Assembly: GCA_034670405.1 (NCBI GenBank) | Contig: JAXDDX010000001.1 | Location: 6,009,501-6,073,500, forward strand | Reading direction: 5' to 3' | DNA from: Hoplostethus atlanticus | Lineage: Eukaryota > Chordata > Actinopteri > Trachichthyiformes > Trachichthyidae | DNA length: 64,000 nt | In this document: one piece after another, positions 9,916 to 20,800 of the stretch | Numbering within the stretch: position 1 is the stretch's first letter | Layout of the letters: the number at the start of each line of letters is the position of its first letter | Translations under genes and position numbers: made by a program | The notes under the pieces: model-generated | What the model saw: only the letters and a program-made list of their open reading frames with translations | Database searches by the model: none | Told to the model about the DNA's origin: nothing

Positions 9916-11800
9916 GTAGCTTTTAGACGGCAACCACCGACTGCACTAAATCAGGTCATTTTTCATTCCCAGCTGAAGAGCGTCAAATCAACAGTGCAAA
10001 GTAGATGCTGTCACTTGTTCAAAGGGTAACACTGAGGATATGAGAACCAAAAGAATGTAAAATAGGTGGCATGTCCCTTTTATTGGGGTCTTGTGAATAA
10101 CTACTCGAGATATTATTTTGAATGCTAGAAGTGATTGAGAGCTAAAAAGTCTGCTAAACATGACCACCATTTATTCCAAAAAGTGACAACTAAACTGTTA
10201 AGCATTTTTGTTATGGGTTGGAAAAAAAGGTGAAGACATTTGTAATAATTTACTTTTCACAGATGCAATTAAAATAGAGATGCTTTTTGTAACACCTTTA
10301 ATATTAGATTCTGCATGAAGTTGAAAGCATGAAGCGGTTGTTATGTACAGCAATTTTACACAAAGTAACAATTGAAAACACTACAATTGGCACTAAAACA
10401 CAGTTTACAAAGCAAACATGCTATCCACACACATATACATGGCCATCTTATTTTAAGTTTAACACATGCTTACTGGGATTTTGGTTTTTATACTAGGTCT
10501 ATTGTGACACTACATATCAACAGGATATCAACAGTAAAGTGAGGCCACAAGCAGCAATGAGTAGGCAAAATGGTCTTAATGTTTGGGGGTCTGGTTGATA
10601 ACACTTTGTAGTGCAATATTAAGTACCACAGCGAAGACGTCATGGAGGGGAAACAGTCACCCAGTACTCCCTACCAGTTCTGCCCTTTCATATAAAAACA
10701 ATGAAGACAGCCAGCATTGATATTTATTGACATTTCCTCATTTTACCAGATAGCCTGTTTAATCAATTTGGATCTGAAATTTCTACAAGTCAAATCTTTA
10801 CCTTCTAAACCACGTGCATGCAGTTGCATGTTTCTACTTGATTTCAGTTAACGAACATCAAAACATGATCCAAGAAATATGTCTGAATACATCAAAAACA
10901 GCAGTAGTTATTAATTGCCAAACCAGGTGAAACCTGTGAGGATGAGATGATATTATGTTCATTCTACAGTGGTCCTGTGGTCAACTCCATCGGCTGCAGT
11001 CTAACTAAGAAGGTCACAGGGGAGCTGGGGAGTTAGTCTTGTGATCAGACTGGCGGAGAGGGGTTAGGGGTCAGCCCACATGCCTGAAGAAACAAAAGCC
11101 TTTTTCTCAGCATTATTCACAGGGAAGGAACTGTGTGGTTCTGTGTTTGTATGGAGCAAAGCGCCCTTTTATTATAAAATCCATAGAGGAGCTCTAAGTA
11201 CAGGGTTGGTAAAGCTGTGGTATAGCCCATCCCTCTCAGGGCACCCTACCATCAGTGGATGCCTGTCGACTCCTATCCCCCTATTGTTTGGACTGCGGTT
11301 GTGCTTTCCGCCATGTCTGGACAGCCAAAGGGAACAGTTGCCATGGTCAAGGCTTGACCTGCGGATCTGACCAGTTCAGCTTTGGCCTACTGTGCTTGCC
11401 TAAGAAGCTTCTGTGTGGAGCTCTCCTTGTGAAACTCAGCACACCATGTCAGATAAATGAGTGGGACTTGAAGAGAACAGCTGTTACTCTTGCTCAAAGG
11501 AAAGTCATACAGCATAAAAACACCCTTTTGAACATCCAATATGGACCTACCATGTTCTGCTGGCCACAACAAAAGGACGTCCAACCGGATTGTGGCTGGA
11601 AAAAAATAGACTGCTTCCCAAAATGTCACAACAGCATGCAAACTTTGTCTTCTGATTTGATTGAACCCCAAGTTCCATACATGTCCAAACTGATTCATAT
11701 GACAAGTTCAAAAAACATAAATACAGTATGAGACATAATACATAATGACATTGGCTCTCTTCTGTTTGAGTTCCTTTGAAACAAGGTCCAGTGTGACGAG
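9916..11800. other. Intergenic DNA and presumed ca12 3' UTR
   Basis: No coding exon recognised on either strand. The part nearest 11800 should be ca12 3' UTR; candidate minus-strand AATAAA signals are at 11173-11168 and 10728-10723. A 158-codon plus-strand frame (11255-11731) lies here and looks fortuitous: no family resemblance, cysteine-rich by chance, opposite the UTR. Confidence 0.5.
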
Positions 11801-14800
11801 CTATACTCTTGAGCCATACTCATCTCTCTCTCCAATGTTGTACCCAACGCCTTTATTCTTGTCCTGGTTGGCATCAGATCTAAGGAGTAAATCATAGAGA
11901 GGTACACATAACTTAATTCTTTCTGTTACTGAAATTTTGTCTTCTTCTTAAAGTAGTAGTATATAATATTTGATTCAATTTTCTAAAAAAAAAAAAAGCT
12001 TTGTGACCTTGATCTTTGAAGGTTTTTTTGTGAAGTTGTTGTTTAGTGCCATGATACATGAGCAAGATTTTGAGCCTATGTAGGTAACTTTAACTTTTAT
12101 TTTCATGATATTTCTGTTGGTTAAGATGGACTCTTATCAATTTTGTCCCCGTTAACAATTCCTGTTTCCACAACAGGCAATATTGCCCATGTCGTTTTAC
12201 TCAAGACCTTACCCGTCTATCATCAGAAAGAAATGGCATCGTCGTTTTTTTTGTCATAATAAAATACCAACGCTTTGGAAGTTGGGAAGAGTAGAAGAGA
12301 GCAGGAACGTTTCCCATAGTCTAGTGCAGAAAGCCCATCTGTGATGAACCAGGAGCTCAGTCTCTCACCTCCAAAAGTGTTTTGTACGTCATTACCATAA
12401 GGAAAACGTAAGAGGGTGTGATGCCCTCAGCAGGTGTCCTCACACACACACAGCACATTTTACCAGTGGAGTAAAATGTCCTGCCCTTTTGGGGTTCTCC
12501 TCTCTATTCATTCATATATTGTATCTCGTAGACATAATTTTCCTTTTCATCAGATCCACTTTTCACACAGATGACATCCAGCTGCATTTATTTGTTGATC
12601 CAATTACAAAGCCTTCACAAAAATTGCATGGCAGATATTGCATGTTGGATGTCTGAAAATGAGATTGTGCCATTTGATCATTCAAACGTCAAATTCACAA
12701 AAATCTCGGCAACATGAAAACGAATGTAACACCTACTGCTGGAAATCTGTGAAATTGTTTTATTCTGGTAATCATAAAAAATATTTGAAATGGCTTATTT
12801 CATCATTTTAAGAAATATTTTTAACATTGCTTTGATGTTAAACAAATGTTAATTTTTAATGGTCTTTAAAAAAAGAAAAAAAATGTATCTTGTCTGGACG
12901 ATTGTAATTTTTTTAATGTAATTTTTTTCTAGCCTCATTCTGCATCCCTTTCTCAGCTCTCAGTTTTATCCTCTCCACATTGGCTTCCAACTAAGCTAGC
13001 CCCAATTTGTATGTTGTATATACACTATATACAATTTAAATTTTGCCTTCCTCCCAGGTTTCCTCTGACCATTTGAAAGTCTAAAATGTACTTAAATCTC
13101 TTTCTGAAAGACTGTTCTCTCATATCTAAAAGTTAATTCAATTCTCTGAATCTATTATTGACTATGTACTATATCAAATCTGTGCTAAACACAACAATCC
13201 AAACTCCAGAAAATATACACCACGGTGCAACTCTTATGGAAAACCACCATCACACAAAATGTGCTCTTGATTTAAACGATGTCACACTGTCTAGTGTGGC
13301 ACAAATGAGTGTACAGCTGCTTCTCTTGAAATATCCTCTGCAATTGTCCATTTTAACTTTTTTTAAATGTAACCTTTTATATATATGCACCCAAAATAAA
13401 TCTTGGACAGCTCTGTTCTGAGTTTGCTCTACCACTTAAACATATGCCCTCTCAATGACAGGAATGTTTTGGAAAATCCCTATCAGGCACATAACTACAA
13501 AATAATAACAGACAAATGATAGATAGACACATCAGGTTCCAGTTCTCAGACAATCAATTCTCAAGTGTTAGTTTTAGTTAGTTTTTCAAGTCTTGATTAT
13601 GAAAATCATCAGGTTTACCAGCTGTGTTTAGTCGATTTTAACTGACCTTTCAATATTATAGGCGCAGCGTGATTTTAACAAGCACAATGATGGTCTTCTG
13701 TTGGTGTTTCCCCTTTACCTACCTTTTTTGCTTTATTTGGCAGCATACTAAAAAGACAATGAGAACAAGTCCCAGTGCAGAGGCCAACACTGTGGACACC
13801 AGTACACCTGCAAGGTATGGGAGCAACAGCATCAGTAATCACCAAAGGCAATAAGGGATAAAAGGATAATTGGGGTCTTGGACTCAGTGTGTGTGTGTGT
13901 GTGTGTGTGTGTGTTGGGTATGTGTTTTCAAATTTTGAGTGTGTGAAAAATTAAAAAATTAGGGCAAAAGATTAGAGAGAAAAACAATCAAAACTTTGAC
14001 CAAAACTGCTCCAAAATCCAAATGTTAAAATATTTCAGTGCCGTTAAAAATATCTGCTATGGTGAGGTGAGATTTTTATATAAATATCTGAACTCACAGT
14101 TGTTATATTCTAAACTATTGACCTATGTTCTGTCATAATGTATTAGATATCCACACAGATCCATTGATAGTTTAGTTTGGTAATTTCTATTCCTTTACAT
14201 CTACAAACCAGTTTTCTGATTCCACTGAGTCGACGTGGGGGCTCACAGAGATAAAAGGGCTAATTTGAACTCTTGTGTTACTCATTTGCTAAAACCCTAA
14301 CAAAATGTTAGTGGCCAGTCTACTATACAGAAAGTGAGAGTCACGTGATGCTGGATAAATATGAGATAGCCATGGAAAGGATGACATGCAACAGGAGGTA
14401 AGTGTAAATGTACAAAATAGAAAAATACAGAAAAGCAACATACCAAGATTCATCCAAGACAGGTCAGCTGAGTAACAGAGAAAAAGAGAAAAGAAAAGTG
14501 AAAATAAGATTCATAGAGGAAAAGACACCAATACCATCATAGGAAGAAGAGTCAAAAGGAAAAAAATGACCATTAATAACTGCAAAGTCGACTTCACCAC
14601 AGACAGTTCTTTAAAAGACACTAGCTGGCGGTTTTCACAGTTCAAACTAACAAACAGAGTCAGACAAATTCATGAACTTTTTGCTGAAAAATGGTGACAT
14701 CAGTTCTTTGCTCCTGTCATCCCCCTTGCTCTGTTCTTGATCAGTCTATCCTGTCTACTCACAGCATTTAAACCTGCCATTTAACGTGACAGGCATGTGG

Positions 14801-17800
14801 CCAATGCCTGCCTCCTCATGGAGAGGGTTGTTAAATCATCCCTGGACTGTGGTCATGTTTGTTACCATACAGACACTATCACACCTGTTCTCAAAAAAAA
14901 AACCTTCCCTTTTTGCCAGGGATGTAGAAAAGGGAAAACCTCCCTAAATTCAGTTTACCCACCTTTTCATTTGTGGAACAGAGTTTCCTCAACTTTTAAG
15001 GCTGACACATTTTTTCATGACAGAAATTTGTAGTACGCATCATATATATAGTATAAACCAGTGTAGGTGATGAGCCTGCGATGGCTAGTGTGACAAATGA
15101 CCTTTTGATGGTTGCTGCCTCGCATTATATGAGTATCCTCATCCTTTTAACCCTGAGCACAACTTTCAAATTTTCTCCATCTGGAAACTGTAAACAGCAT
15201 CAAATCAACCACATCAACTGCTCCTTATGGTTTCAGTGCTTGTCTGATGAAGTGCATTGTGGCTCGAAATGTTACCAGGTGGTAATACATTTTTTATTTT
15301 GTCTTTGATCTGCCCAGCACCTGCACTTAAAACGGATATGCGTGCCTCCTTTTTACGTCTTCAGTCCTTGGCTCCCTTCTTGGTCATATAATCCATAGCC
15401 ACAGTCTCAAATATCATCTCAACGCTGATGACACTCCTATCACCCCTACCAAATTATACACCTCATCTGCACTACACGTTCCACTACTGCCTACATAGGA
15501 TGAAAACCTGATGATGATGTAGTGTTGGTAGCTGCCTCCCTTCATGCTCCAAACTTGGGAGTGCTCCCCATCTGCACCATGTCTTTTGAAACACACGACA
15601 AGGCATGACTGCCCTGTGTCACCGCAGGAGCATTTCTTTTCATTCGTTATTTTCTTTATTTCTGATGCCAAATGCATCATCCACCTATTAATTACCGTTT
15701 GTCTAGATTATTGCAACTTCATGCTCCACGGTTCCTTATGGAGCAGGTTACTGTAATTTTCAATTATGTTGCCCATTTCCTCATATGCACTATATTGCCA
15801 GCACCTCCAAGATCTTCACCTCAGCTTTGTCTACCAGAACTTTGTCTGCTAGAAGTCAGCCTCCCGTGACACTGAAAAGGTTTAAGCTGGAGAAAATGAA
15901 TGAATTAGTAATAATACTAGTTACATGAGTTCAGAGCAAAAGGTATAGTCGAGGAGGGAAAAAATATGCTTCATATATAATGCTTTTATTCAAAACAATG
16001 CCAAGTCTAGTGGCTTCCTTACTTATTTCAAATGGCATTTAGAACAGCAGCACAAATTGGTACAGAATCCAGGAATGTTTAAATGCTTAAGCTCTCGTAA
16101 ATGCTTCTGGTTTAGCTGCCTTTTCCATTGTGCAAGACAATAACCACAATAACTACTTACATAGCATAGCACTAAACTTTCCGAAAAACTCTAATCTCCT
16201 TTCCAGGCAGTGTCTTGTCTTTGCGTGTATTACATATAGCGTCATGGTCAGTTTATAGGCAAGCAAGGTTAAGCTAGAAAACTCTCCAAAGAGACAAAAT
16301 TCCCATTGTGAGATACCCTCATTCATCATTTTGACAAAAACAATCTGAAATGAACATAATACACTAAAATGTGCCATTTTAAGATACTATGGGAATGGGA
16401 ATTTTGTCTCTTTTGAGCAGTGGTTTCAATATTTCAATATTTTCTTCAAAATATTAAGCCTGAGTACTCGTATTTGTAAGAACAGTAACTACAGTAGATT
16501 AAGTAAAGCTACAATCTTTTTCTAACAAAATGATTATGTGCACATACTAAAAATAATAATTTAATATTAAATAATTTTGTGAAAAGTCATCAGAAGATGA
16601 CAGTTTGGTCAGGAGAACTTGGGGCTACAATGTGTTGAAATAATAATCTTTCATTCTGGGATACACAACTGATGTCCACTACAGAAGGTGATATAAACTG
16701 AGTCTAGATTGTCTACAATATCTTGTCAAGAATATTTCTAGTCTTCCCACTCCATTGGCAGAAGCCAGGGATGTGGATGACCCTGACTGGGCACAGTGGC
16801 AGGGGAAAGACCTCCATACTTTGTCAGTGGCACGGTGTGCTTCAGTGCTGTGGAAGTGTCCCTATGGCCCATCGAGGCTTTGGTCAGAGAGCGATCTAAT
16901 TCAAAAGCCTCATCTGTTGGCCGTCCACGGAGGATATGTCTGATGGTGGAGAGGGCTAGGTCTGACTTACAATCCAGGTAGCTCCTGAGGTTGAGCTCAG
17001 GGAAAACTATGTCTTTGAGAGCCTGAACCAGCTGAATCTCAGTGTGGGATTGTCTGAGCTGATGGATAACTCTCTGTTCCAACGAGACATAGCATAATGT
17101 GTCCTCAGTGAGTCCTGACTTTCCCACAGAGCGGTTGGTCTGGCTCTTTTTCTGTAGAGAGGATTTCAGCCGTTGTAGTTTGGGGTTGGCCAGGGTCCCG
17201 CTGTGCTGGTTCTTGAGGTCTTTCCACTTCTTGCCAACACGAGGCTTTTCTGAGCCACTTGGTAGGAGTTGATAGAGCCCTTCGTCAGCCAGGTCTGCTA
17301 GGTCACCAACCAGTAGCTGTTGAATGATTTTCTTCCTCACAAGTGGAGATGTGACTGTAAGAGTACCATGCAGTCCTCTGCCTGCATCAGACACAGAGCC
17401 AATCACAACTTGTTAAACAACCCAGCTCAAGGGATATTCCAGGGTCTGGAATAAAAAAAAGGGTCTTTGGCCTACAGGCCCAGCATGCAACAGCGTTACC
17501 TGTAGTGGTAAACTGAATGTATAAGCCATCTCGTGCTGAATGCCTCATGAAAGACAGAATAACAGAGGATGATGCACTGCCATGTCAAAACAGATCTGCC
17601 ATTAGAAAAGTATAGCCCTGAGAGAAATGAGGAAAACATGCAGATTCTTAACATACAGCAGTGTATGGCATTTACGTCCATACAGTGCGGTAAACCACCA
17701 CTGACTTAAAGTACGCCTTTGAAGACAGATTTAATTGGCTGTTGAGTAGTTTGTTATATAAAAGGAATGGTTAATTTGTTTGCATCTTGAAGGATGGCCT

Positions 17801-20800
17801 ACTTTCCAACAAGCTCATCCCTCGCAATCAACTTTACAGACGGTTATGAATAACATCAAGGCAACAGCTTAACCACAAGCAGGTGATACCATACGAGCAA
17901 AAGACAGCTTGACAGCCCTGTAGAAGAGAAAAATAACACCCACACCTCATTCAAACCAAACTCAAAGCCATTTTTAAAGCAGTGCAGTGGCTATGCCATT
18001 CAAACAAGTATGGTGAACTTTTCCCCTCATGCTCCAATGTCGAGGCAAACCCATTTTGAAGACCATACTTACCATCCTTAAAAGATACCAGGACTACTCG
18101 GTTGTCAGTGAGTTGTAGTCTCCTGTAGTTGTCATTCAGAGGCACAAGGGCTGATTCCTGAGCATAGGAGGAGTAGATGGCAGTTGCTAGGGCCAGAAAC
18201 TGGGGAGACACAACAAAACAAACATGTTAAACATAGACAGACCTTAAAAAACATTATCATTTAATTTGCAGACTAATTTGGGTGTTAAATTAGGTTGATT
18301 TCAAGGTTAAATTCAAATGTTAGCCCCTGTGAAAACATCTGGAACAATGATGGTAAATCTAATTAAACAGAATAGGCCTATTTTAGTAATTGAAAACCTG
18401 CTTAGAGAGGTTAAGAGTGTTGAAGCACCTGTTTGCGAGAAATTGTCACAGGATTCCTGAACACCGTCCACAGCACGCTAGGATAGCATGGAGGAGTCGT
18501 CAGTGACCCATCATAGCGGTAATACTCATCCAAACGTGCAGGCAGCAGCGCTCTGATGTTGAAACCTGGCACCTGCACTCTCTGATCTGCCGGTTGAGAT
18601 GCACAACGCAATTCATTTCACTATGAAACACCAATCTAAGTGGGAGTAAACTCTTTTGGATTAGGTTTTCAGAATGAATGCAAGTGGATGAAGATTCAGA
18701 AAAAAAGCCTGACTACTGGTGATGTCTGTGGATCGCCAAAGTAGTTGATGTTGATGGTTAACAGCTCATGAACTTATATGTTGTGTGCTAAAACTGGAAA
18801 ATGTTCCACCAAGACGTGAAATATCTCTTTAAACTCACCTCTGTATTTGATACCATTGATGAATTTCAGAAACTGTTCGAAGGTTGGATTGAACTCCCCA
18901 ACCTGTATGTAAAGCATATTTAGAAAGGTCTGCTCCAGAGGCATTCGGTATTAAGGTCACTTTCCCAACCCGCTGACCCTCTCCACAGAGTCTCACCTCA
19001 ATCAGAACACCCAGCACAGCCAGGCCGTCAGATTTGTCTATAGCCATGGAAAGGTTGGCGTATTTGTCCGAATTGAAGTGGACAAGATGCATCTGTGAAA
19101 GTGAAGAGAAAAAAGTCAAGATCATGTGCCTCATAAAAGTTTATATATCTAATCAGTCAGCCTTATTTCAAAATATGTTGACCGGTCTGCCTTCTGCTCT
19201 ATCTTTATCTTATAGTTTCTCTCTTCTTTGTAGTCCTTCATCTTTATAAATACACTTTATGGCAAACTTTTGTCACTAAACACATTTTTTCCACATAGGT
19301 GTTAATTGGATTGGAAATAGCTGGTACTGTTCAGCTGATGGCATACTGATGAGAAGTCTGTGTGTTACAAGAAAAGCGTACAAGAAATATTGGAGTGGGT
19401 GGACCATTACAGCACAGGAGTAGGTACCAGATGTGTAGTTGTTTTGCCGATGATATTGTGTACGTATTCTGGGTACCACAAAGGCATGTTAGTCATGCAA
19501 GCAAAATATGCAGGAATTGTATTTATGGACTATGGTCTGTCCTGGGAAAAAGGGGGACCATTCCACTATTTCTGGGAAATGTTCAATTTGACATCATTCC
19601 ATCCCTCCAAAACAACATGTCATCAAGGAAAAGTAAGAGACTGTGGTTGTGGAGTCTGGAGACACTTGAAAAGATGCATGCGCTTGACGTGTCCACTGAC
19701 AAACTCAGGTCAAACCACAGCACCTTAAATGTGGTTGTGCTGCAGCAGGAGCATGGTCCCATAAAAGGACACAGGTTGTAACAATTTCAGCTCCTACCCA
19801 CAGCCATTTAAATGAACGTTGAATGATATAAAAAGTCACATGTTTTTTGTCTGTGTTATGAAGTAGAGTGCCGTCAAATTTGTCTTTTCTTTCTCATAAT
19901 AAACTGCGTGACTCTTCCTCGTGTGCAAAACTGCTTACTGGCCTTAACACATTAAATAGCACAGCCAGACACTCTGTTCAAGAGGTGGTTGAAAACCCAA
20001 GCATATAATAGTCTAGGACTCTAATCCCCGAAAAGCCTGGAAAAATAAGAGGTGCTGATCGTACTGAGGTTGACTGAAATTACGTCTTCGCCTTTTGGTA
20101 TGTGCAACTATGTGAAAAAATATGTACATTTCTGAATGGTAAAATGTTAGGGCATACATTTTGAGCTGAAGTTAGGCCTAGTAATCTGGCACAGAATATT
20201 TTATTTCCATTTATTGTGTACACTGCAATTTGGCAGTTTGATACAGATCATAATATTTTAGTGAGCATAACAGTGAGCTCCTTCTAATCTCATTGGCTGT
20301 CTAGCCTCAAAAGTCATTTATCATATTCTTTATCATATTCTTCTTACAGTGGCCTGCCTCACAACTGCTTGTTTAAAGTTACAGTGTTCCAAGCCTCTTT
20401 AATTAGAATGACTCATGGTTTCAGATGTTTTATACAAGCATTCAATTATACGAAGTCAATTACATAAAGTGGATAAAGTGGAAGATGCATCTCAGCTGCT
20501 TCTGAAACCATCTAAAGGGTGGATGCTACAAAACTGCCACGATGCTGGGGAACTGGGACAGGAATATGCACATAGGCAGCTCTTCACAAGTTTATTCAGC
20601 CTGAGCAGCATTGTCTGAAAGCCTTGAAGGGTGTCAGTGGGTCTGGTCACTCTGCCAGTCAAATGTCACACATTTAAGTCATAGAGTATTAAATCATTTG
20701 TCTGGACGCTGAGATACTGTGGCATGATGCTGAGACCGGTGAAAGACCTGTTTAAACCAATGGTCTAAGCTGCACTCAAACAATGATAGTGACCCCTCAA

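Follow-up and report, generated by a model that had tools for sequence, protein, structure and literature searches.

A long open reading frame (ORF) within an intron of the carbonic anhydrase gene ca12 of a fish raises the question of where such a frame came from and whether the host has made use of it. The window, that is, the whole 64-kb stretch of DNA analysed here, carries exons matched in Pfam: those for carbonic anhydrase on the minus strand (about 18.4-19.1 kb), and on the plus strand a ubiquitin hydrolase exon (42.3 kb) and F-box and leucine-rich exons (45.6 and 50.0 kb), an order which we take to be that of the CA12-USP3-FBXL22 neighbourhood. The ORF lies on the ca12 strand, in the intron that separates an exon with its end at 18073 from the transmembrane exon at 13807 [Table 1]. 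The former was assigned from its position, splice sites, and frame, its own ORF being matched neither in Pfam nor in PDB; the latter encodes, as judged by eye, a hydrophobic run followed by basic residues. Downstream of the ORF, the same intron also contains an inverted repeat (window 16284-16417) with 24-base arms that are 96% complementary and separated by 86 bases, a small hairpin or MITE-like repeat.

Table 1. Features in and around the ca12 intron (window positions; a slash marks the splice junction).
Feature	Position	Strand	Remarks
ca12 exon upstream of intron	18073..18199	minus	phase-1 donor ATG/GTAAGT, best in the stretch scanned
Possible first coding exon, 118 bases, weak	17500..17617	minus	acceptor 17617, ATG 17548, donor 17499
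Putative GT-AG intron, 118 bases	17382..17499	minus	donor CAG/GTAACG
Open exon	17381-16738	minus	214 codons including a split first codon, then TAG stop; predicted Gag-derived protein
N-terminal stretch	17146..17328	minus	collinear with L010 Gag ORF residues about 67-130
Capsid core	16882..17127	minus	homologous to L010 Gag ORF residues 175-256, the first half of its capsid region
C-terminal tail, 45 residues	16741..16875	minus	without detectable Gag homology
Possible polyadenylation signal ATTAAA	16560..16565	minus	about 170 bases past the ORF stop
ca12 transmembrane exon downstream of intron	13723..13807	minus	phase-1 acceptor

The open stretch that the initial annotation described on the strand of ca12 is present as reported. 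Measured from stop to stop, the ORF spans 17412-16738 (-) and 224 codons, which become 214 when counted from the acceptor at 17382/17381. No other stop-free run of the window is as long, the next two having 172 codons each, and the remaining two frames of the ORF strand hold 9 stops apiece. Order-2 Markov copies of the window contained a run of at least 224 codons in 1 case of 100, those of the ca12 intron in none of 1000, and copies of 4.2 kb with the composition of the ORF region in 3.9% of 1000. The length by itself is just mildly unusual, and we count the ORF as real because of its homology to Gag rather than its length. Elsewhere in the window, 11213-11728 (+) is a stop-free run of 172 codons without a Pfam match.

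The annotation had found no family that fits the protein. This has to be revised, since the middle of the ORF is homologous (37-39% identity over about 83 residues) to the capsid region of Ty3/gypsy-type Gags of the same genome, from elements that also encode reverse transcriptase, RNase H, and integrase. The core aligned with the Gag of one such element, L010, at 38.6% identity over 83 columns (tblastn E 9e-9); its alignment score of 123 was reached by none of 1000 shuffles, the maximum of which was 54. Residues 1-60 scored 45 against the N-terminus of the L010 Gag (shuffle maximum 43; 0 of 1000), and the score of residues 1-80 against the whole L010 Gag was reached by 6 of 1000 shuffles. In the same shuffle test, this N-terminal stretch found no match in the L011 or L013 Gag. 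Both homologous parts fall within a single tblastn alignment spanning ORF residues 19 to 167 at 28% identity. Beyond it, the tail (residues 166-214) scored no better against the three Gags than shuffled sequence did (289, 449, and 302 of 1000 shuffles equalled its score), and its placement by MAFFT on later capsid columns, with large gaps, gained no backing from the shuffles. Since the alignment ends past the first half of the capsid region, the ORF is without the second half and without a zinc knuckle, which makes an intact Gag less likely and leaves descent from Gag unaffected.

The ORF protein matched no Pfam family, its matches in PDB were not convincing, and a profile search of PDB did not find a capsid. 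A single-sequence structure model of the core shows five helices (pLDDT 61) and matches none of the solved capsids with confidence; from its position and helix content, the core may be a capsid N-lobe. On the strength of the alignments, the ORF almost certainly derives from the capsid region of a Ty3/gypsy-type Gag. A new lineage-specific gene without relatives, to which the missing Pfam match and the unconvincing PDB match might have pointed, is contradicted by this clear homology and is very improbable.

The search of the own genome with the ORF covered 632.8 Mb in 1161 contigs; besides the ORF it matched nine places, with identities of 29-39% (E 5.7e-7 to 1.3e-4). Seven of the nine lie in open frames of 404-592 codons, and the other two have a stop. 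In L010 and L011, the Pfam domains RVT_1, RT_RNaseH, Integrase_H2C2, and rve adjoin the matching Gag frame, and the Gags themselves (L010, 1839-3503; L011, 6702-8477) are matched by no Pfam capsid model; this Gag lineage seems to be absent from Pfam. A further search with the L010 capsid region gave at least 23 hits, the candidate and the query's own place included, at no fewer than 21 places, two of which appear twice; 12 hits are free of stops and 11 carry them. Among the matches listed, the L010 and L011 groups account for four places each and the L025/L026 pair for two, and the other 11 are divergent. Stops interrupt eight of these 11, the stop-free ones among the matches listed being the candidate, L034, and L036 (73 and 71 residues matched, respectively). 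L034 (G000:C7:8560058-8560282) and L036 (G000:C34:2401816-2402028) are Gag-like and lie in frames that stay open for 128 and 77 codons; they could be further retained pieces or the result of chance.

No structure of a retroelement was detected at the locus. DNA searches of the own genome, which skip very common words, matched nothing but the query itself, both with 1471 bases spanning the ORF and with 841 bases beyond its stop. When three Gag and six pol queries were run against the window by tblastn, only the ORF itself came below E 1.9; direct repeats of at least 18 bases are absent from the ca12 intron, and around the ORF no remnant of pol, LTR, or another gag was detected. Collections of viral contigs and genome contigs gave no relative. 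With neither adjoining pol and LTRs nor further copies, the ORF differs from an active LTR retrotransposon copy and, according to the DNA searches, has the form of a domesticated gag, a single copy without element structure. The lack of any other copy, LTR, or pol trace argues for an old insertion. In composition, the GC content of the ORF by codon phase (0.60/0.42/0.54) exceeds that of the flanking intron (0.37-0.44) at two of the three phases; its high GC3 is not special because that of the L011 pol is 0.52. The CpG ratio of the ORF (0.26) is similar to that of the window (0.31) and lower than those of the L010 gag (0.40) and the L011 gag (0.36).

We then compared the candidate with its relatives in two trees, one built by FastTree from 11 sequences (the candidate and 10 of the 22 other hits listed) and a second of 84 columns from which three near-identical sequences had been removed. 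The candidate branch measures 1.79 changes per site in the second tree and 1.19 in the first; the terminal branches of the seven other sequences in the second tree range from 0.01 to 0.53. The initial suggestion of a fast-evolving gene agrees with a branch of this length (1.2-1.8 changes per site). The candidate groups with A, B, and F at a support of 85/87, a placement that is not firm; an alternative that unites A, B, C, E, and F and sets the candidate on the side of D was not rejected (p = 0.069). By a rough conversion, 1.2 changes per residue correspond to about 0.54 per base if neutral, at which the chance of 214 stop-free codons would be about 5e-6 with indels not counted, and hence the branch was not neutral over most of its length. 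The constraint may have been that of a host gene, or the sequence may have accumulated the changes of this long branch while still a constrained element of a family that has since disappeared; in the sequence of one genome, the two would look alike. Conservation of single residues did not help to separate a gene from a fossil. The candidate has the residue of A at 16 of the 27 positions where A, C, and E agree and at 11 of the 44 others (p = 0.004); the counts are 21 of 43 against 9 of 37 where A and C agree (p = 0.02), and 9 of 21 against 21 of 58 where A, C, and D agree (p = 0.39), all three p values being uncorrected. As stop-carrying copies lean likewise (L020, 33/45 against 22/38; L030, 23/32 against 13/30), the test fails to tell the two apart.

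The likeliest single account, which we give about an even chance, is that the ORF descends from an ancient insertion of a Ty3/gypsy-type gag in the ca12 intron and is now a domesticated, host-retained remnant, presumably transcribed, spliced, and held open by host selection. Its most serious competitor, an appreciable possibility of somewhat lower probability, is a functionless retrotransposon fossil whose lack of stops is due to luck or to a recent insertion. The genome holds both open and decayed relatives, the ORF was selected as the longest open run of the window, and in neutral simulations, with and without indels, the frame stayed open with a probability of 0.21-0.64 at 2% divergence and 0.03-0.31 at 5%. 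At 10% neutral change, however, it survived in 12.5% of indel-free runs and in none of 1000 that allowed indels, most of the divergent places among the matches listed have acquired stops, and a young copy should show near relatives or LTRs or pol nearby, of which none was found. The branch length weighs on both sides, as element lineages can have long branches too: the stem of group D (L025, open) and L038 measures 1.19 in the second tree. An old host-retained gag exon is favoured over the fossil, not firmly, because the branch is long and yet no stop has arisen.

How a retained exon would be joined into a transcript bears on the remaining alternative, in which the ORF is an alternative last exon of ca12. 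The acceptor in front of the open exon (phase 1) has two in-phase upstream partners, donor 17499 of the proposed first exon and, in ca12 itself, the donor at 18072, and no in-frame ATG lies near the start of the open exon. Splicing from 18073 to 17381 would yield a carbonic anhydrase with a Gag-capsid end in place of its membrane anchor. The ca12 donor is likewise of phase 1 so that the join is in frame, the two lie on the same strand, an ATTAAA follows the stop, and an exon without an ATG of its own near its start would suit such a fusion. Nevertheless, we consider it unlikely, since agreement in phase is expected by chance in one case of three and the acceptor is middling (rank 18 among the 281 AG sites of the intron, scored with simple matrices), with stronger sites at 17917 and 17617 closer to the donor. 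The other partner is the first exon of the initial annotation, whose hidden gene in the ca12 intron is sustained in part. Its 118-base GT-AG intron (17499-17382) and its ATG at 17548 after an in-frame stop are in place, and a coding exon is plausible; the two-exon model is just one of several, and the proposed first exon is weak. By the same matrices, donor 17499 ranks third between 18100 and 17391 and is the best among 23 possible in-phase ATG exons, and the acceptor at 17617 ranks first among the 281 sites. By eye, two other ATGs with short frames precede ATG 17548 within the exon, and no likeness to Gag N-termini is seen in it. A gained intron would be out of the ordinary in a fish gene.

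Host retention of a gag remnant would add one more gene of the domesticated-capsid type, a kind already known; we hold this to be an evenly balanced proposition. The Gags of both the L010 and L011 groups share with the candidate the first half of the capsid region, and those of L010 only share the N-terminal stretch; in contrast to them, the candidate turned up a single time, ends in a tail of its own, and is without the second half of the capsid, zinc knuckle, protease, and pol. Human RTL8 is a truncated relative of PEG10 that has the N-terminal capsid domain in common with it (PMC11684626), and LDOC1 is a mammalian gene with the N-terminal capsid lobe only (PMC11011659). In form, the candidate resembles these two mammalian genes as a Gag derivative cut down to the first part of the capsid (PMC11684626, PMC11011659); unlike them, it sits in a ca12 intron. 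The PNMA, RTL, and ARC genes, domesticated from Ty3/gypsy-type capsids, have no introns inside the capsid region (PMC11011659), and neither has the candidate. The domesticated capsid genes drawn on here from these two papers are mammalian.

On the account that we favour, the remnant of the inserted Ty3/gypsy-type gag has kept a helical stretch at its N-terminus together with half of the capsid region, the first, while losing the second half, zinc knuckle, and pol and gaining a new tail. The half-capsid might then bind the capsids of related elements and spoil or tune their assembly, as RTL8 does to PEG10; RTL8 alone makes no particles, is incorporated in those of PEG10, and reduces particle yield by binding the N-terminal domain of the PEG10 capsid (PMC11684626). 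We give low weight to such interference, which is proposed by analogy. A possible target exists, as the gag frames of the near-identical L010-group copies L016, L017, and L018 are open. There is a slim chance that the half-capsid, within ca12 or in a transcript of its own, acts as a restriction factor against related open-gag elements, perhaps in the form of an alternatively spliced carbonic anhydrase-capsid chimera. If host retention is true, this would be an example in fish, from a Gag lineage that no Pfam capsid model matches, and would show that such genes can escape family searches; its half-capsid form would also test whether truncated Gags are repeatedly retained to control their relatives.

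A separate observation concerns the pol frame of L010. To our knowledge, a MYND finger is unusual in a gypsy-type pol frame, and among the titles and opening lines of abstracts in the literature searched, no paper on such a finger was found. At L010:3455-4954 (+), a zf-MYND domain (Pfam, E 1.3e-10) opens this frame, ahead of a weak match to a protease.
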